This document shows positions 1,012 to 55,337 of a stretch of 64,000 nucleotides of DNA, one piece after another. Position 1 is the stretch's first letter. Each line of letters opens with the position of its first letter. Location of the stretch: IMG/VR virus record IMGVR_UViG_3300033153_013547, positions 1 to 64,000 of that record. One strand, 5' to 3'. The stretch is from a virus. Position numbers and translations under genes: made by a program. The notes under the pieces were generated by a model. That model made no database searches, was not told the DNA's origin, and saw only the letters and a list, made by a program, of their open reading frames with translations.

Positions 1012-1296
1012 TTATATCACCATTATATCACAAAAAGGGTCATTGACTTTAAAATCAATGACCATTGATAATATTATCTCTCTGACTACATTGTAATCAC
1101 ATGTTTCTAACATCAATTTGGTTACACAATGAGTTGTTTTTTTCTTAGGATCACTTCCCCAAATAGACAACATTATCATATTATCATATATTTGCCAATC
1201 AAAATGATATTGTCCCCAAGATACAAAAACAGTGTGCCCCAAGATGTCTATACCTTCCAAAAGATTACTGTCTTGCATCCAGGAAATGTTGAGCAT
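1012..1296 (-). CDS. hypothetical protein, 94 aa
   Basis: A small soluble protein of unknown function, coupled to the downstream gene (stop and next ATG are adjacent). It has a tryptophan- and tyrosine-rich N-terminal half (GQYHFDWQIYDN) and a helical C-terminal half. No family is recognised. Confidence 0.65.
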   Translation of the reverse strand: MLNISWMQDSNLLEGIDILGHTVFVSWGQYHFDWQIYDNMIMLSIWGSDPKKKTTHCVTKLMLETCDYNVVREIILSMVIDFKVNDPFCDIMVI

Positions 1297-31240: not shown

Positions 31241-32372
31241 AAAAGACTTTCCTTCTGTCTTTCTCTTCTTGAAACTCAAGAACAATATCTATAAGATCAT
31301 TGGTCTCAATTAGACCTATGACATGTTTAATTTTACATGCTCTTATCCATTCATAAGCAGATGATATTTGTTCCTTACGCAAACAAAACAAAGCACCAGA
31401 ATAGGGGTAATTCATTGCCTCAAAAGCAAATTCCTTATCTTCTTTTATCATTTCAATAGAATGATAAGTTTCTTCTATATCTGCTACTAAATCTGCTATT
31501 CTTTGTCTTACAAGATCAAAGGCTACTGCCAATCCAGGAAAAAACAAGGCAAGATCATCACTATTTCCCTTGATCACTAAATCTATGATATCTTTTAAGG
31601 ACAAATTGTTCTTAATCCTTGTACCTCTTATGTAGCTTAGTGTTTTGAATTTCAGCCTGTTGAAGTTTTTATCTACAGCAACAAATCCTTCTGCCTGAGT
31701 TCCCATGATATTTTCACAGGCTGTTATTACACCTTCAGTAGTTCTAATATTCTTGTGTAATTTGACACATTCCCAACCAAATGTATTGGCAGCAGTATCA
31801 GGTAATTGTTCTAAATAAGGGTAGCCATGAGACATTTTTCTCACCCCATGAAGAACTATACGTGATCCTTTGTGCCTTACAAGCACTATATTAGCTGGAG
31901 TCATCAATTCAAACATGTAAGTAAATCCAGGCACAGGTAGTTTGTAACCAAGAGTTTTCCATGTTTCCCAGAACAATTCTTCAAAAGTTATTTCCCAACC
32001 TAAAACTCTTCCTCGTGCATCAGCCATACCTAAAGTGCTAACATTCCATTGATCATTGTAATACCACAAGCAAACCATTGATCCATCTACTTTTTCATAG
32101 ATGGAAACATTATTCCAGTCTAGTGCAACAGCATTAGGTTCCCCATAATTGAAGAATTTTCTGTAAGGAAAACAAACAGGCAACCAATCATTGTCTGCAT
32201 CTAACACTATACCTCTGGCATCTTGAACTACAGGATTTTCCATTGGGGAGTGAAGCGTATGATATTTAAACAAATACAGATTAGGAAATATAGAGTGTAT
32301 ATTATGCATTATTCCTAACTCATCAAGTTTATCTAAACCATGATGTCTAATAAAATTGACTATTTCTATCAT
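31224..32372 (-). CDS. T4 Rnl1-type RNA ligase
   Basis: The 382-residue enzyme joins or repairs cut RNA ends, for example tRNAs cleaved by host anticodon nucleases. The nucleotidyltransferase motifs are ARGIVLDADNDWLPVCFPYR (52-71), motif I YEKVDGSM (92-99, nucleophile Lys94), FELMTPANIVL, motif IV EGFVAVD and motif V RLKFKT. The order and spacing match the Rnl1 family (RNA_lig_T4_1). Its stop overlaps the following gene by 17 bases. No separate polynucleotide kinase gene is visible in the window. Confidence 0.93.
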   Translation of the reverse strand: MIEIVNFIRHHGLDKLDELGIMHNIHSIFPNLYLFKYHTLHSPMENPVVQDARGIVLDADNDWLPVCFPYRKFFNYGEPNAVALDWNNVSIYEKVDGSMVCLWYYNDQWNVSTLGMADARGRVLGWEITFEELFWETWKTLGYKLPVPGFTYMFELMTPANIVLVRHKGSRIVLHGVRKMSHGYPYLEQLPDTAANTFGWECVKLHKNIRTTEGVITACENIMGTQAEGFVAVDKNFNRLKFKTLSYIRGTRIKNNLSLKDIIDLVIKGNSDDLALFFPGLAVAFDLVRQRIADLVADIEETYHSIEMIKEDKEFAFEAMNYPYSGALFCLRKEQISSAYEWIRACKIKHVIGLIETNDLIDIVLEFQEEKDRRKVFYGEEV

Positions 32373-40749: not shown

Positions 40750-42543
40750 TCACAGAACAATATTATATTTATCCTCAAATTCATCATATGTCATGATTGG
40801 AATTCCTGTTTCCATTGCTATAGCCATTTTAGATGATGTAGAATTTTTATCAGCACATATCAATATTTCAACTGGTTTTTTCCAAGTGTCAGAAACTATA
40901 AAGCCACGACTGACTAAAATATCCCTATATTCATATCTATACAGAGTGGGATGTTTGCCAGTACAGCAGACAACAATTGGAGATGCTTCAGTGCTAAGTA
41001 TTTCTGCATCCAGATCAACAAAAAGATCAAGACAATCCCTGACTTTGTCAATACCTTCAGAGATCAGGGCTTTGTGAGTATCATCAAACCCTTTGATATC
41101 ATCAAGACCATTTGCCTGCACTTCTGATATGAAATTCTCAATATTACCATAGTGTTCTATGAGTTTCTTGCCCTGTTTTCTGTCAATATTTGGCAAATCA
41201 GCACATTCAATAATTGCTTCTTCACTAAGTTCCAGATTTCTTAATTGTCTGTGCAGGTATTCTGCTGCCTCATCACTAAAACCATCAATTGCTGATAACT
41301 CATCAACAGAGAGATCATAAATGTCTCTTAGATTTTGATATCCAGCATTGAACAGCATTTCAACTGTTGCATCTGATATGTTATCTATTTCAAGGACAGA
41401 AAAAAGATGTTGAAGCTTAGAGAGCCTTTCTTTTGCACAATCTGTATTATTGCAACAAGCATGATATTTTCTCAATACGCTTGTGGTATTGCACAACGAA
41501 CAAACAGGTAGTTTTAGTCCCGTAGTAGATGATTCGTAAATATCCGAAATATATGGTGGAGAATCATAGACATGGGACTTAGCAACACCTACACGCGCAC
41601 CTATACCAAGCTTCAAGTTCTTAAGAATAGAGTAATTACTTACATTAACACGTTGTATATTAATACCATTAATAATTACTGGATTCTCAAGAACCAGAAC
41701 TGGGGCTAAATGTCCCTGGAACCCCATATTCCATTCAATTGATCCAATAATAGCTTCAGCAGAGTCATCAAACTTGACAGCTACAGTATTACCTGTAGTA
41801 ACTGCTTCTAATACCAACCCATTTGTACGATATGATTTAAGAGAATGATGAACAAATCGTCGTCTTAAATATTCATACAAAGACAAAGGGGTATTTATAT
41901 TATCTGATGCTGGAATATATTGCTCTGCAGGCCCAAGATAGAAATAAGAAAGAATTTGTTTCTTTGTTTCATAACTATCAATACATTCTCCTAAAACATC
42001 AAAGCTAACAATATTGATACTGTTATTCAACTTGGCTAATGAGGAAGGTTCAGCACTTAACAATTTAGAAGTAATACTCTGTGATTTTTCCAGTAATTCC
42101 CAAATAAAAGTAACAACTTCTGCCCTAACAACAATAAGATCATAAGGAAGATTTACATTAGTGTATATGTTCAAATATCTAGCCTTGTCTGTTATATCAT
42201 AACCAACAAGTCCATTGCCTCTTGTAGAAATAGATCTAAGATTCCCTTTATAATAAACAATTTCTAATGAAATACCATCAAGTTTTGGAGAATAAACTAT
42301 AGGACTATTCTGTACTCTTATCCACTCAGCCAGTTCTATTGGATCTTTTATTTTTCTTAGTCCCTTTATAGGAAAAACATGAGTCACTTTCTTTCTAAAC
42401 TTACTGACATCAACATCAAGACTTGCATCTGGATCCATATCTGTTAGCAGATCATATTCAGCATCTGTCAAAATAGGCTTATTTCCATTGTAATAAGCCT
42501 CATTAGCGTTTTTGACCAATGCTTTTTTGTCTGATTTTGTCAT
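40750..42543 (-). CDS. ligA: NAD-dependent DNA ligase
   Basis: The 597-residue enzyme seals nicks with NAD. It has the N-terminal Ia segment (NEAYYNGNKPILTDAEYDLL), motif I SPKLDG (residues 85-90, Lys87 nucleophile), RGNG, the OB fold, a four-Cys zinc finger (CSLCNT...CCNNTDC), the HhH repeats (GYQNLRDIYDLSVDELSAID) and a C-terminal BRCT domain (VVCCTGKHPTLYRYEYRDIL). All domains are present in the standard order. The overlap with the upstream gene and GGGG before the ATG at 42543 set the start. Confidence 0.95.
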   Translation of the reverse strand: MTKSDKKALVKNANEAYYNGNKPILTDAEYDLLTDMDPDASLDVDVSKFRKKVTHVFPIKGLRKIKDPIELAEWIRVQNSPIVYSPKLDGISLEIVYYKGNLRSISTRGNGLVGYDITDKARYLNIYTNVNLPYDLIVVRAEVVTFIWELLEKSQSITSKLLSAEPSSLAKLNNSINIVSFDVLGECIDSYETKKQILSYFYLGPAEQYIPASDNINTPLSLYEYLRRRFVHHSLKSYRTNGLVLEAVTTGNTVAVKFDDSAEAIIGSIEWNMGFQGHLAPVLVLENPVIINGINIQRVNVSNYSILKNLKLGIGARVGVAKSHVYDSPPYISDIYESSTTGLKLPVCSLCNTTSVLRKYHACCNNTDCAKERLSKLQHLFSVLEIDNISDATVEMLFNAGYQNLRDIYDLSVDELSAIDGFSDEAAEYLHRQLRNLELSEEAIIECADLPNIDRKQGKKLIEHYGNIENFISEVQANGLDDIKGFDDTHKALISEGIDKVRDCLDLFVDLDAEILSTEASPIVVCCTGKHPTLYRYEYRDILVSRGFIVSDTWKKPVEILICADKNSTSSKMAIAMETGIPIMTYDEFEDKYNIVL

Positions 42544-43435
42544 GAAACAACCCCTTAAAAACATTTTCCATACCAAATAAAATGTTATCTAACAGTATTC
42601 TACAAAACTCCAAGATCCTGCTAAATTTTGTTATGCTAAGATTTTGTTGGAACTTATTGTGTATAAATGGCTTTTTATAGACATAAAACTTGCCATTTAT
42701 ATCACCATAAAGTCCATATCCTTTTTGCCAAACTTTCCAACGTCTTCTAGCATATCTCAGAATTTTCCTATCTAATTTATCTGATACACAGAAACACTGC
42801 AACAAAAGAAGCAGGTCTTTTGTCATATCCTTACGTATATAGTCAAGCTTTGATTGATGTAATACATCTGGGAACAATTCGTGAACAAATTTAAATACAC
42901 CGTATGTCGTATATGATACTGCCTTGCGCAATGCAACGCTAATTGTCTTCTGCGATATGTCATAGGCAAAGTTATAAGAAAAATCCCTAGAGATTGTTGC
43001 ATTTTTTGCGTCGTCTCGTGTTTCAAACAATAACCATTTTCTATTAGGCAAATTGTCATTTTGCAAGCACAAAGTATTACCAACAGATGCCATTAGCTCA
43101 CGTGTTTTTCGGAACCATTTAGGTACACACAGCGGACGTAATAAACGTGCTTTACGCACGAAAACACGATTACGTTCTTTAGCAATAACTTCTTTATATT
43201 CAGCAACATATATTTGAAAATTTGTGAGAGAACTTGCTACCCAATGAGGCCATGATTGATATGGCTCAGTAATCAGACAAATTCCTTTATAATGTTTATA
43301 AAGGGATTGACTGATTTCATACCATTCACCAGGAATCCATTGACCATATACAAATTTAGGCAATGACCATTTTCCAAAACGATCTTCATAAGATTTGTTA
43401 TTAATCAAGACCTTGTATAATTTATTGTTCATCAC
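42503..43435 (-). CDS. hypothetical phage protein, 310 aa
   Basis: An aromatic- and basic-rich soluble protein with KLYKVLINNKSYEDRFGKWS and GICLITEPYQSWPHWVASS near the start. The YKVL...GKW...W layout recurs in phage proteins of unknown function. It overlaps LigA by 41 bases. Confidence 0.8.
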   Translation of the reverse strand: MMNNKLYKVLINNKSYEDRFGKWSLPKFVYGQWIPGEWYEISQSLYKHYKGICLITEPYQSWPHWVASSLTNFQIYVAEYKEVIAKERNRVFVRKARLLRPLCVPKWFRKTRELMASVGNTLCLQNDNLPNRKWLLFETRDDAKNATISRDFSYNFAYDISQKTISVALRKAVSYTTYGVFKFVHELFPDVLHQSKLDYIRKDMTKDLLLLLQCFCVSDKLDRKILRYARRRWKVWQKGYGLYGDINGKFYVYKKPFIHNKFQQNLSITKFSRILEFCRILLDNILFGMENVFKGLFHDKIRQKSIGQKR

Positions 43436-46123: not shown

Positions 46124-48070
46124 TTACTCCCTAGAAAGTAGTAGCTTGACAAAAGTGTCTCTTTCTATGTTCTCAAGTGATAGATCTATATCTGCATCAT
46201 CTGGGCTATCCAGCAAAATTGCACCTGCCTTGACAAACAAATCATTAAATGTTATAGCATTCATGCGAGAATACATCAAATACTGCCTGACATGTTCAAT
46301 TATTGCAGTATGGCGCATAGAAATTCCATTACCAACATGTATTCCACCAAGGTAAATGGCTAGATCATTGCTTCTAGTTGTCAGCAATCCAACCACCTGT
46401 TGTTTTTCTACAACTAGTGGAATGCTTGCTACTACTAAATTTGGATCCACTATGTGATCTAGCAAACATGCTTTGTTTTCTTCATTATTATTTCCAGCAG
46501 TCATTGAATTACTTCTAGCAATAATCAAGTTGAAGGGAACATTAGATATTCTTCTGGTATAATCATTGACATTTACTAGGTAGTCTTTCATAACTCCCAA
46601 ACTTATTCTAATTACTTCTGTTGCACCATCAGGTGGTGGTGCATCTATCACATCTCCTGAAAATAGAATGTCTGAACCTGAGCTTCTGTAATCACCATCC
46701 CATCCTATTTTCTGACCCAATGATGTTATAGATAGATCAAGATCTATTCTTGTATCTGATGAATTCTTCCAATGAATACCAATCAGCATATCCATTGGCA
46801 CAGCAATAGAAGTGCCAAATGGAAATCCATGTAAAAATTGTTTCTCAGATGCTGGAACACCATAACAAACAAAATCAGGTATGTAAATTTTCTTGTTTGC
46901 AACAGCAGGTGCAATACTGGAAGCTATTTCATTTACTACCATATCTAAAACGGATTGTGCTTTTTGCCGTTGTTCGTAACTAAACGGCTTGATCTCTGTA
47001 GCAAATCCTTTTCCATTACGAATACGATATAATATTGAATAACTATTTGACATTCTATATTGCAGTGCATGCATCAATCGTATTTGACGGAAGACATTTA
47101 CTCTCTTCAACTCTGCACGTATCTTATCTTCCTGTAAATCAATGCCCATTGTAATATACTTAGTTATAGAATTGAGATAATCTTCTTGCATAGGCTTGTG
47201 ATGTTTCTTAGCCATTCTCCTGATGTAATTGACCATAGAACGACAATCATCATGAAGTTTTCTTATTGCCAGAAAGATTGGCTTAAATCTATAGAAAATT
47301 TCTCCCAGCCTATGCAAACCATAGGTTTCATCATATTTTTTCAAAAGCCTAGCAATAGACTTTCCTTTTTGTGAGCAACGAATCTCTGTGATCATATCTT
47401 TGCTCTTAATAAGCAAGGTTTTACCTGTAAGTTTATACACAAGAAGTCTAAGAAATTCCACTGGATCATGAGGCAACAACCCAATTTTATCACAGAAAAT
47501 AGCCATAGCCTCTTTATTTCTTATAGACTCTATATCTTCTGAGGTTACATTCACCACATCAGCTATAGTGATTATGTCTTCTAATGTGTTTTCCTTAAGT
47601 GCAATACCTGAAGAAAGAAGAGTAAGAATTTTAGACTTGAGTTCATCAATAGTATATCCATGAATAATTGTTATGCTCAATTTATCAGTTATTTCAGGAA
47701 TATCTAGTGCTTCACTTGGAATGTATATGCAATCTGAGTTGTATGCTTCAGAATGTTCTGATTCATATACAGAAATATAATGAAGGATTTGTTCAACCAC
47801 AAGTCGTTCAGCAGAAGCAGTAACCACTTTGTTCCATGATTTATGAAAAGTGGAGTTTAGTTGCTGTGGAGATACTGCAAGTTCAGTAGCTATGCTTGTT
47901 ATGATTTCTTCTATAGCAGAATCTGTATAATGATCTATAACCTCAGAGGACAAAATAAATCCAAGAGGGATTGTTTTAGACAGAAATTTATCTGAACATT
48001 TACGTTTAGGTTTGTCACCTATAGGTAATCCATGAAATAGGCGCAATGTAGCATTTATTATAGCAATCAT
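46124..48070 (-). CDS. large protein with TerD-like DLDLS segment, 648 aa
   Basis: The N-terminal 390 residues are helical and unknown. From about residue 400 the protein reads KKIYIPDFVCYGVPASEKQF, then MLIGIHWKNSSDTRIDLDLS, GQKIGWDGDY and LFSGDVIDAPPPDGATEVIR. The RxDLDLS, GW..Y, FSGD..DAP..DGA order matches bacterial stress proteins of the MXAN_6230/SCO0854 type and the DLDLS core of TerD. A metal- or nucleotide-linked stress role is inferred. GGAGG five bases upstream fixes the start at 48070; the longer frame would run into the structured RNAs. Confidence 0.75.
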   Translation of the reverse strand: MIAIINATLRLFHGLPIGDKPKRKCSDKFLSKTIPLGFILSSEVIDHYTDSAIEEIITSIATELAVSPQQLNSTFHKSWNKVVTASAERLVVEQILHYISVYESEHSEAYNSDCIYIPSEALDIPEITDKLSITIIHGYTIDELKSKILTLLSSGIALKENTLEDIITIADVVNVTSEDIESIRNKEAMAIFCDKIGLLPHDPVEFLRLLVYKLTGKTLLIKSKDMITEIRCSQKGKSIARLLKKYDETYGLHRLGEIFYRFKPIFLAIRKLHDDCRSMVNYIRRMAKKHHKPMQEDYLNSITKYITMGIDLQEDKIRAELKRVNVFRQIRLMHALQYRMSNSYSILYRIRNGKGFATEIKPFSYEQRQKAQSVLDMVVNEIASSIAPAVANKKIYIPDFVCYGVPASEKQFLHGFPFGTSIAVPMDMLIGIHWKNSSDTRIDLDLSITSLGQKIGWDGDYRSSGSDILFSGDVIDAPPPDGATEVIRISLGVMKDYLVNVNDYTRRISNVPFNLIIARSNSMTAGNNNEENKACLLDHIVDPNLVVASIPLVVEKQQVVGLLTTRSNDLAIYLGGIHVGNGISMRHTAIIEHVRQYLMYSRMNAITFNDLFVKAGAILLDSPDDADIDLSLENIERDTFVKLLLSRE

Positions 48071-48090: not shown

Positions 48091-48155
48091 GTTCTGGTGG
48101 CGAGAAGTAAGACTTAATACTACGATTAAATAGGAACTTCTTATGCCACCAGAAC
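48091..48155 (-). ncRNA. structured RNA element 1 (tandem family)
   Basis: Outer 11-bp stem GTTCTGGTGGC/GCCACCAGAAC; conserved internal parts ATA, AGAAGT, TCCTATT on the 5' side and TTACTTCT-C on the 3' side (minus strand); a small apical hairpin TTAAT/ATTAA. It is one of three copies in 220 bases and the last before the 46124 gene. Confidence 0.75.
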
Positions 48156-48175
48156 TGGTTGCATAAGTAAAAATA

Positions 48176-48229
48176 CCTAGCGGCGGAGAGTAAGTTATCC
48201 ATTTTATAGGAACTATCTATGCCGCTAGG
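48176..48229 (-). ncRNA. structured RNA element 2 (tandem family)
   Basis: The outer stem is CCTAGCGGC/GCCGCTAGG (9 bp, different sequence from the other copies). The conserved inner core is again ATA, (G)ATAGT, TCCTAT and TTACTCTC-C. The P2 stem shows compensating A-U to G-C changes against elements 1 and 3, supporting a real RNA helix. Confidence 0.75.
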
Positions 48230-48237
48230 ATCAATAC

Positions 48238-48308
48238 ATGATAGCGAGAAGTAAAGCTAAGCGCCATGTTGCCATGGCAGTATAAATAGGAACTTCTTAT
48301 GCTATCAT
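48238..48308 (-). ncRNA. structured RNA element 3 (tandem family)
   Basis: The outer stem is ATGATAGC/GCTATCAT (8 bp), with the same inner core ATA, AGAAGT, TCCTATT and TTACTTCT-C, and a longer apical hairpin GCCATG/CATGGC. It lies first in transcription order, 34 bases after the stop of the 48342 gene. Confidence 0.75.
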
Positions 48309-53641: not shown

Positions 53642-55252
53642 TCACTTCTTCCTCCAACCAACAGCAGATTTCAACCTATACATCATAGTCTCAGGTTCTG
53701 TTGAATCCAAACCAGTAGCATAATCTAACAGATCTGACTCATCTTTGCCAAGATTTTTGTCAAGATGTTTAGAAATAATTCTAGGCTTCATAACTGATTT
53801 CTCAGTTTCCTCTTCAAATCCTATTTCTATAATTTTACCTATGTAATGATCAGGATGTAAATAAGCATCTCTTCTTACTTCATCTGTCAATCCAGTTCCT
53901 GCTTTGAATTGTTTTGTGCCATTTTGATTCTGAACAATAAACCCACCAATCATTTTACCTTTTAGTTTGTTTTGTCCAGGGAAGGTGTCTATAATTTCAC
54001 AATCTTCTGTGCTGAGAGCTTTCCATTTGACCATCTGAGAATTGAAATCACCTGTGGTATCCTTTCCCACTACTCCTTCACCATTAGCACTAACCACTTT
54101 TTCAAATAAGGTTTTGCCATCATCTGAGGAAATAGGGACACTAACAAAATTTGACTTCTGAGATCTAACCCAGTTCTCATATATTGCCCTTCTGTCAATA
54201 TATGGCAACTTATCTACTTTTTTACCATCAAATTGATAGACATCAAATATAACAAGTTTAGCCTTACCAGGCAGAATAGCCTGATTTTCTCTACTTTTGA
54301 CAGGCAAAGCATTAGACAATCCTGCAATTATTTGTTCTCTTTCTTGTCCTGATTCAACATAAACCAACTCTGCCTTGAAAATAGTCTTACCATCAGGAAA
54401 TTTCAGTGTTTGCAACTCAGGATAATAATTATAAGTTCTATCAATTGTTTTACCATCCACTGAAATTCTATGGCTGGTAAGGGTAACAGATTTACCTTTA
54501 CTGCCAGAGATATTTACATGTGCTCCCTTGTGTTTTTGTTCCCAAATAATCTTTGGATCACTAAGAGCAGCTGTTACCAAATGTTTTGCAGAAGAATAGA
54601 TTCCTTTGTCTAATCTAACAGCCTTGGAATCTTTCAAGTCACTTTTTGTATAAAGCCATTTACCATTTTTGTTAGTAAGTGTAACCTTTTCATTAGACTC
54701 AGTAATAAACTGAATCTGATCTTCATTACATTTAGTGACTAGAATTTTACCATCATAGACATTTCTAACTTTGCCTTTGCCATAACCTTCTGGTATCTCA
54801 AACCATTTCTTGCTTATTTGATCAGACCAGTTGATTGTATGATCATTAGTCCTAATCATTTGTAATTTCTTGTCAGGTAAAACACCCTTCCTGGTTACAA
54901 ATGACATAGCAAACTTATTACCATACCTATTGACCAAGTGAATTCTATAATCATAGTGCAATCCTGCTTTGTCTGCTACATGTTCTTGAATAACAAGTCT
55001 GGTAAGTTTGCCTTCGTTAGTTTTGCTAGGAACATCAAGTAAGACAGAAGGAAAAATTCTCTTTACAAGGAAATTTGATTTCTCAACACCATATGAATTC
55101 TTGTGTTGAGAAATAGTTTGTTTGATCAATGGATTCACAAGATGATTGAGAAAAGAAATGATGTCTCTTTTGAATTCACAAACAAGATCAGTTAGAGCAT
55201 TAGCAAGACAATTCAAAGCCAAACTCCTTGTAAGATTATTATCTTCTGTCAT
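53642..55252 (-). CDS. LigD-type 3'-phosphoesterase fused to ATP-dependent DNA ligase
   Basis: The 536-residue protein begins with a helical segment, then a phosphoesterase domain: VIQEHVADKAGLHYDYRIHL (residues 87-106, cf. HYDLRLE) and IPEGYGKGKVRNVYDGK (153-169), as in LigD PE. The ligase part has EQKHKGAHVNI (motif I, Lys240 with KHKG in place of KYDG), FKAELVY, VIFDVYQFDG, motif IV EGVVGK, motif V MVKWKAL and an OB fold. The Asp-to-Lys change in motif I is unusual. Together they would clean and join broken DNA ends. The start is ambiguous between 55252, 55273 and a TTG upstream. Confidence 0.9.
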   Translation of the reverse strand: MTEDNNLTRSLALNCLANALTDLVCEFKRDIISFLNHLVNPLIKQTISQHKNSYGVEKSNFLVKRIFPSVLLDVPSKTNEGKLTRLVIQEHVADKAGLHYDYRIHLVNRYGNKFAMSFVTRKGVLPDKKLQMIRTNDHTINWSDQISKKWFEIPEGYGKGKVRNVYDGKILVTKCNEDQIQFITESNEKVTLTNKNGKWLYTKSDLKDSKAVRLDKGIYSSAKHLVTAALSDPKIIWEQKHKGAHVNISGSKGKSVTLTSHRISVDGKTIDRTYNYYPELQTLKFPDGKTIFKAELVYVESGQEREQIIAGLSNALPVKSRENQAILPGKAKLVIFDVYQFDGKKVDKLPYIDRRAIYENWVRSQKSNFVSVPISSDDGKTLFEKVVSANGEGVVGKDTTGDFNSQMVKWKALSTEDCEIIDTFPGQNKLKGKMIGGFIVQNQNGTKQFKAGTGLTDEVRRDAYLHPDHYIGKIIEIGFEEETEKSVMKPRIISKHLDKNLGKDESDLLDYATGLDSTEPETMMYRLKSAVGWRKK

Positions 55253-55307
55253 AATCTCTAGATTGTTATGCATATTGCCAGTGACAACAAGTCTAATATT
55301 TTCATAA

Positions 55308-55337
55308 ATCAATACTCATAGCATCATGCATATCTTT
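55308..55337 (-). pseudogene. 10-codon fragment related to the 52095 gene
   Basis: The minus strand encodes KDMHDAMSID, matching KDMYDAMGIE of the 52095-52343 product with 26 of 29 bases shared. It is a leftover of recombination or duplication close to the start of the ligase gene. Confidence 0.5.

Follow-up and report, generated by a model that had tools for sequence, protein, structure and literature searches.

Hairpin array and partner gene

The window, i.e., the whole stretch of DNA that was analysed, spans the first 64,000 nucleotides of a viral record of 261,124 bases (IMG/VR IMGVR_UViG_3300033153_013547) and carries on its minus strand (48308-48091) three tandem hairpins located between a 56-aa ORF and a gene coding for a 648-aa protein (46124..48070, minus strand), hereafter the partner protein, which belongs to the same family as the products of genes found after such hairpins in phages, bacteria, and archaeal bins. 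The start of this gene, 48202 in the ORF list, was corrected to 48070 by its Shine-Dalgarno sequence, and 20 nt separate the start codon from the nearest hairpin, copy C. The three copies share one layout, namely an outer stem (P1), an ANA bulge facing a C, a 6-bp inner stem (P2), a UCCUAU strand facing a U, and a variable payload; the common elements read ATA, P2, TCCTAT ... T, P2', C, and this shared core with its stems is referred to as the handle. Specifically, copy A (48238..48308, minus strand) has P1 ATGATAGC/GCTATCAT, the ATA/C bulge, P2 AGAAGT/ACTTCT, and UCCUAU/U, and encloses within these coordinates the tetraloop hairpin GCCATG-GCAA-CATGGC as payload. Copy B (48176..48229, minus strand) has P1 CCTAGCGGC/GCCGCTAGG and P2 GATAGT/ACTCTC with one mismatch, and encloses an AU-rich payload of 13 nt; copy C (48091..48155, minus strand) has P1 GTTCTGGTGGC/GCCACCAGAAC and P2 AGAAGT/ACTTCT, and encloses 20 nt, the payloads of the array being one tetraloop hairpin and two AU-rich loops. 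The P1 stems measure 8, 9, and 11 bp and are unrelated to one another in sequence. A sequence-only reading had described three tandem hairpins with a shared core, different outer stems, and a P2 changed in the second copy with one mismatch, and these claims held in position and detail.

The folding z scores of copies A, B, and C are -3.76, -4.75, and -8.15, and none of the 200 shuffles of each folded as well. The window contains three exact occurrences of the half-motif, up to three mismatches give seven matches versus 1.46 expected, and the rest of the record contains neither a further exact half-motif nor a convincing copy.

A widespread RNA family

Scanning IMG/VR for the exact pattern returned 78 stretches, some of them due to chance, of which only those with both stems were kept, and a looser pattern, GCANANNNNGTTCCTA, occurs 135 times in 37 chosen records versus once for the reversed control. 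When all retrieved sequence was scanned under relaxed criteria and with pairing required, 300 distinct cores were obtained. When five-prime half motifs near the gene were picked without any pairing demand, a full P2 and P1 partner was present for 122/144 viral motifs (5 after shuffling of the remaining sequence) and for 105/127 cellular ones (6 after shuffling), i.e., for 227/271 together versus 11 in the control. All of AU, GC, UA, and CG are used at pair 3 of P2 and at pair 4 of P1, and the most constant letters are the closing C-G of P1, the A.A of the bulge, the GU/AC of P2, and the U and C of the 3' side, with the caveat that some of them were fixed by the search seed. The hairpins are thereby shown, with covariation, to be members of a widespread and apparently unnamed RNA family of phages, bacteria, and archaeal bins. 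The earlier proposal of a functional RNA family, which would have been refuted by the lack of other members together with a lack of RNA expression, or by the loss of core pairing, is supported by the many relatives, by the pairing retained in related phages and in bacteria, and by the covariation of P1 and P2, and neither refuting outcome was met; expression is inferred.

The sequence-only reading had recognised no known class. At the gathering score of Rfam the window contains two tRNAs and no other family, and permissive scans of five and seven other loci gave YrlA and HEARO matches only below threshold, no family exceeding its cut-off in the five. One such HEARO match, at 44.6 bits versus a cut-off of 83, lies at positions 1022-1201 (plus strand) of locus L262. 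A blastn search with 7.8 kb of window DNA matched no annotated phage record, tblastn matched the annotated phages S-CRM01, S-CBWM1, and Phass-1, and no plasmid relatives were found. Neither the core nor the protein in association with RNA is described in the open-licence PMC literature searched, and an earlier mention of the protein in RtcB neighbourhoods is not excluded; RNA-repair systems have reportedly been surveyed by Burroughs and Aravind.

Linkage of the cores to the partner gene

The genes located directly 3' of the hairpins in different phages code for one protein family. A search of viral contigs with the partner-protein alignment identified 80 loci, and among the 78 that have at least 150 nt of upstream sequence, located by protein only, 68 carry same-strand cores within 600 nt upstream, with none of the 78 showing an opposite-strand core and none showing a core after dinucleotide shuffling. 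Excluding the 15/78 already caught by the RNA pattern, as judged by comparison of contig names and, for L206, by record length, leaves cores in 55/63. The ten viral loci lacking a near-upstream core comprise three with cores just 3' of the gene (L212, L241, and L246), three with cores 1.2-1.3 kb upstream (L220, L258, and L259), two with variant cores recognised by eye (L240 and L248), and two in which no core was seen by eye (L252 and L261). A scan of bacterial and archaeal genomes for the partner protein yielded 241 relatives, 80 of which were kept, and same-strand upstream cores are present at 77 of the 78 testable cellular loci, opposite-strand cores at none of the 78. Reciprocally, the partner protein is encoded in 20/25 core-bearing viral records and in 14/14 of those over 75 kb. 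The linkage between RNA family and partner protein is shown by these counts.

Isolate carriers include Chryseobacterium, Flavobacterium, Pedobacter, Ktedonobacter racemifer, and Marinicella. Carriers also occur among bins labelled Lokiarchaeota and Pacearchaeota, where the contigs in question may be of viral origin. The distribution is patchy, e.g., 3/295 genomes in the class of carrier G037. Among isolate phages, Synechococcus phage S-CRM01 has six cores around g174 (five before and one after), Synechococcus phage S-CBWM1 has two, and the gut phage Phass-1 has six clear cores located after the partner gene. In S-CBWM1, two annotated pseudo-tRNAs lie shortly 3' of the partner gene (L284, 11882-12058). 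A protein of Lactobacillus phage LpeD matches the partner family weakly (E 0.4), and upstream of it (L282, 2640-2840) two copies of a different repeated motif, GCTTACTTCTA, stand in hairpin-like flanks; this repeat could be a different RNA of the same kind.

The array had been proposed to be a regulatory leader, a set of processed small RNAs, or a set of protein-binding sites. The last is the best supported of the three through the linkage to the protein family, binding itself being inferred, and a regulatory leader is not excluded for gene-adjacent copies. In its strictest form, the leader explanation states that the protein represses translation by binding the handles of its own 5' UTR and that tRNA payloads are incidental captures. 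Ribosomal proteins repress their own translation through binding to the 5' UTR. This explanation is rather unlikely but remains possible: in many cases 5-35 nt separate a core from the downstream start of the protein match, as 20 nt separate copy C of the window from the start codon, and giant phages keep one gene-adjacent core with the others far off (core at 219682 and gene at 219788 in G005; core at 192362 and gene at 190361-192271, minus strand, in G002). Against it, many cores sit in tRNA arrays far from the gene (gene at 19.6 kb and cores at 414-423 kb in G001), some are only 3' of the gene (the three loci named above and the six of Phass-1), g174 of S-CRM01 is also followed by a core, and the payloads are strongly enriched in tRNA parts.

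An element acting at the DNA level, such as a recombinase site or a mobile repeat, would account for a short common sequence in tandem copies, and GAAGTTCCTATT is taken to resemble an arm of the yeast FRT site. This alternative is all but excluded, given that no opposite-strand core occurs in the 78 viral and 78 cellular regions, that covariation is of the RNA style, and that cores are on the same strand as the tRNA parts; a DNA recombination site is rejected on strand specificity together with covariation.

The partner protein

No family of Pfam, PHROG, or PADLOC fits the partner protein (PADLOC on four members), a sequence search against solved structures gave a chance-level match only, and the NCBIfam model NF041916 matches the TerD region only, with 26-29 bits versus a cut-off of 600. 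A known anti-phage defence model was rejected on the lack of a PADLOC match in the four members scanned. An AlphaFold model of the whole protein, built with 68 sequences, has a mean pLDDT of 90.4. Its C-terminal domain (about residues 396-598; 46277..46885, minus strand), delimited by structure match of the predicted model, aligns in VIA with 3ibz (Z 11.3, rmsd 4.3, 149 aligned) and with 2qng (Z 10.3), 2qz7 (Z 9.6), and 2kxt (Z 9.3) over 141-149 residues, and is predicted to be a TerD-like beta sandwich. The resemblance to the TerD family is thus one of C-terminal fold, whereas the partner protein differs in being fused to a helical domain of roughly 400 residues, in being linked to RNA, and in lacking a Pfam TerD match. 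The N-terminal helical domain, modelled alone with a pLDDT of 87.3, found no clear fold match in structure searches, the HEAT-like ring of Ro60/Rsr included, and none hinting at a mode of RNA binding. Polar and aromatic residues that are fully or almost fully conserved occupy model residues 72-102, 261, 281, 291, and 351-354 of this domain, with the motifs N.TFHKSW, EQ..HY..TYG, RFKP, and IRNGK, and might form an RNA-binding or catalytic surface.

Payloads with tRNA parts

Across the family most payloads are not tRNA, and tRNA parts and look-alikes are frequent and present in excess. Specifically, the 274 distinct inserts contain 27 T-loop hairpins versus 0.3 in shuffled sequence, 22 D-arm motifs versus 0.9, 55 hairpins with 7-nt YUnnnRn loops versus 9.4 (a count that overlaps with that of the T loops), and 45 GNRA/UUCG hairpins versus 4.9. 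Anticodon arms used as payload include Ser UGA, Cys GCA, Tyr GUA, and Asn GUU; a D arm and an anticodon arm without acceptor or T arm occur at L035, L039, L054, L019, and L033, and tRNAs that carry CCA and a GNRA loop in place of the anticodon occur at L033, L046, L030, and L053. Moreover, permuted tRNAs, in which the T arm precedes the D arm, are found at L051 (two), L072, L301, and in S-CRM01. In the permuted tRNAs of S-CRM01 and Ktedonobacter racemifer the acceptor is capped by CUUCGG, and in this form such molecules cannot be charged. A further 46 cores are built into the anticodon arm of tRNA bodies that have both a D and a T arm, P1 being capped by a short loop; the acceptor stem has 7/7 pairs in 43/46 of these, and CCA is encoded in six. 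The tRNA payloads are shown for the family only: permuted tRNAs are in none of the three window copies, the payloads of which are not clearly tRNA-like, and tRNA mimicry is not shown for them.

Single-sequence folding of three complex elements approached the drawn fold only for that of Ktedonobacter; the permuted element of S-CRM01 (z -2.71) gave other pairing than drawn, and the handle was not formed in a tRNA-embedded element of Chryseobacterium (z -1.20). Several anticodon-type loops (AATGGGT, AATAGGT, AATGGAA) carry an A in place of U at position 33, at L017 (3377), L019 (1259), L096/L210, and L046 (1869), which, from sequence alone, should hinder normal decoding.

RNA-repair neighbours

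The array is preceded by an RtcB gene in Chryseobacterium, Flavobacterium, and a Desulfobacterales bin. Its presence near a subset of the family is shown: RtcB lies within the 3-kb flanks of 22/80 cellular loci, 19 of the 22 belonging to the Chryseobacterium/Flavobacterium clade, and among 15 phage records searched, RtcB is found in seven, T4 Rnl1 in six, and either of them in nine, with no RtcB or Rnl1 match in the three isolate phages. The record that contains the window has no RtcB and has instead a T4 Rnl1-type RNA ligase domain (31641..32219, minus strand; PF09511 E 2.2e-16, over the cut-off; TIGR02308 53.9 bits, under the cut-off of 242), which is taken to be a type of tRNA-repair enzyme and is not physically linked to the hairpin array. 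Two other ligase-like ORFs lie on the minus strand of the window: an ATP-dependent DNA ligase (53642-55312; Pfam DNA_ligase_A_M and an OB domain), the N-terminus of which looks by eye like a LigD-type phosphoesterase, and an ORF that by eye resembles an NAD-type ligase (40750-42576).

Ligases and tRNA-embedded cores together raise the alternative of a splice unit, akin to an intron or a permuted tRNA gene, in which a nuclease would excise the core and RtcB or Rnl1 would seal the ends, to give functional tRNAs and, from simple hairpins, small circles. Removal of core and linker leaves an anticodon arm of 5 bp and 7 nt in 32/46 tRNA-embedded cores, at two sites (14 at 29/30 and 18 at 33/34), with U33 and R37 in 27 of them, versus 5.1 arms (maximum 10) and 1.1, respectively, with shuffled flanks; permuted tRNAs with matching halves exist in L051 and L072, and a ligase of either type is encoded in 9/15 phage records. 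Conversely, 14/46 cores leave no normal anticodon arm on excision, no fixed cut site is marked because the linkers between core and splice site vary in length, in related Chryseobacterium elements the anticodon is degenerate or missing (a stub only in L342 and L361), the acceptors of two permuted tRNAs are capped by tetraloops, and the majority of payloads are not tRNA. The family resembles intron-containing and circularly permuted tRNA genes in the core placed in the anticodon arm and in the permuted halves, and is unlike them in its variable linkers, capped acceptors, missing anticodons, and many tRNA-free payloads. Splicing, which is inferred, appears unlikely; the tRNA-embedded core is taken as a handle, and splicing is kept as a rival.

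Comparison with Ro60/Y RNA ribonucleoproteins

Bacterial YrlA mimics tRNA through a part that corresponds to a circularly permuted tRNA (PMC11472068). It is described as a link between Rsr and PNPase, rsr and yrlA occur with rtcBA in repair operons, and it has been proposed that an anticodon nuclease is inhibited by the tRNA-like part (PMC8394870, PMC7790460). The handle family resembles Ro60/Rsr-Y RNA RNPs in that its small RNAs combine a two-stranded basal stem with a tRNA-like and sometimes circularly permuted effector, in the adjoining gene for a large protein, and in the RtcB found near part of its members. In contrast, the basal motif is ANA/C and UCC/U instead of the AUGCu/AaAcUuG of Y RNAs (Rfam consensus), TROVE similarity is not detectable in the partner, which has a TerD-like domain where Ro60/Rsr has a vWA domain, and the RNAs are many, in tandem, and diverse in payload, including non-permuted tRNA bodies. 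A comparable case is that of Listeria phage CKA15, in which the gene for the Rsr-like phage RNA-binding protein CKA15_055 follows tRNA genes and non-coding regions with high transcription; Y RNAs are suspected with it, and an HHpred match to Deinococcus Rsr is reported for the protein (PMC12282133).

It could be argued that the system is a genuine but very divergent Ro60/Y RNA system, with the protein as a TROVE homologue and the handle as a variant Ro-binding stem. In favour of this, the Rfam YrlA model (RF02553) matches three permuted elements over its full or central length (Ktedonobacter 40.5 bits, L051 40.4, S-CRM01 35.9), Rsr (2nvo) appears at rank 18 of the Foldseek list for the whole partner model, and the operon logic is akin to that of rsr-yrlBA-rtcBA (PMC7790460). 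However, all YrlA scores are under the cut-off of 69, and neighbouring tRNAs, ordinary or handle-bearing, reach 28-36 bits with the same model. Moreover, none of 14 partner-family members scanned matches Pfam TROVE, hhalign of A2/A3 against a profile of 14 TROVE proteins gives a probability of 0.1-0.2% (100% for the positive control), the Foldseek match to 2nvo has an E value of 0.25 and a TM of 0.20, and the C-terminal domain is TerD-like and not vWA. A TROVE gene was found in 1/9 carrier genomes or records tested, on another contig. TROVE homology is supported by none of Pfam, hhalign, Foldseek, and VIA, and this explanation is very unlikely; by analogy, the system may work as a Y RNA RNP does, without being classed as one.

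A proposed handle-and-payload ribonucleoprotein

The explanation preferred here, held to be somewhat more likely than not and with binding and function inferred in the absence of binding, expression, or phenotype data, is an RNP of handle and payload that imitates tRNA shapes in the manner of Ro60/Rsr-YrlA. The hairpin would consist of a handle (P1, the ANA/C loop, the 6-bp P2, and the UCC/U loop) and of a payload beyond P2, and the handle would be the binding site of the two-domain protein encoded downstream, helical at the N-terminus and TerD-like at the C-terminus; this binding is inferred with fair confidence, binding data being absent. The payload varies across the family from an AU-rich loop to a tetraloop hairpin, an anticodon arm, a piece of T arm, an anticodon-less tRNA, or a permuted tRNA with capped acceptor, and where the handle is grafted into an anticodon arm the payload is a whole tRNA body. 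Protein and hairpin RNAs would form RNPs that display tRNA shapes, as the Ro60/Rsr-YrlA RNP of bacterial RNA-repair operons does, and their most likely task would be to interact with enzymes of tRNA cleavage, repair, or modification. With less confidence, it is inferred that the RNP lures or recruits such enzymes for phage counter-defence or tRNA repair, phage arrays serving as decoys or adaptors to counter tRNA breakage by the host, and that, where copies are directly 5' of the gene, the protein may feed back on its own mRNA. A bolder reading, possible but less likely than not, is that of an undescribed RNP class shared by phages, bacteria, and archaeal bins, in which a helical-TerD protein and a dedicated handle present a catalogue of grafted tRNA mimics, as phage bait for tRNA-cutting defence nucleases and as a cellular, RtcB-linked sensor or scaffold of tRNA damage.

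If the tRNA-mimic RNP is real, it would solve the task of Ro60 and Y RNA a second time, with molecules unrelated in sequence and a far more varied RNA cargo, and it would tie phage tRNA arrays to RNA repair; its function can be tested in the cultured phage S-CRM01 and in Chryseobacterium. Some tRNA-like genes carry a structured handle that replaces, or stands beside, the anticodon loop, and handle RNAs may account for unassigned gaps in phage tRNA arrays. As to these arrays in giant phages (L017 4225-4405, L021, L041, and L019), tRNAs occur as paired near-duplicates, and unusual isotypes have long variable arms, e.g., tRNA-Asn GTT of 85-89 nt and tRNA-Cys of 88-90 nt, and at L037 (5687-5760, minus strand) ARAGORN calls a tRNA with the stop anticodon TTA.
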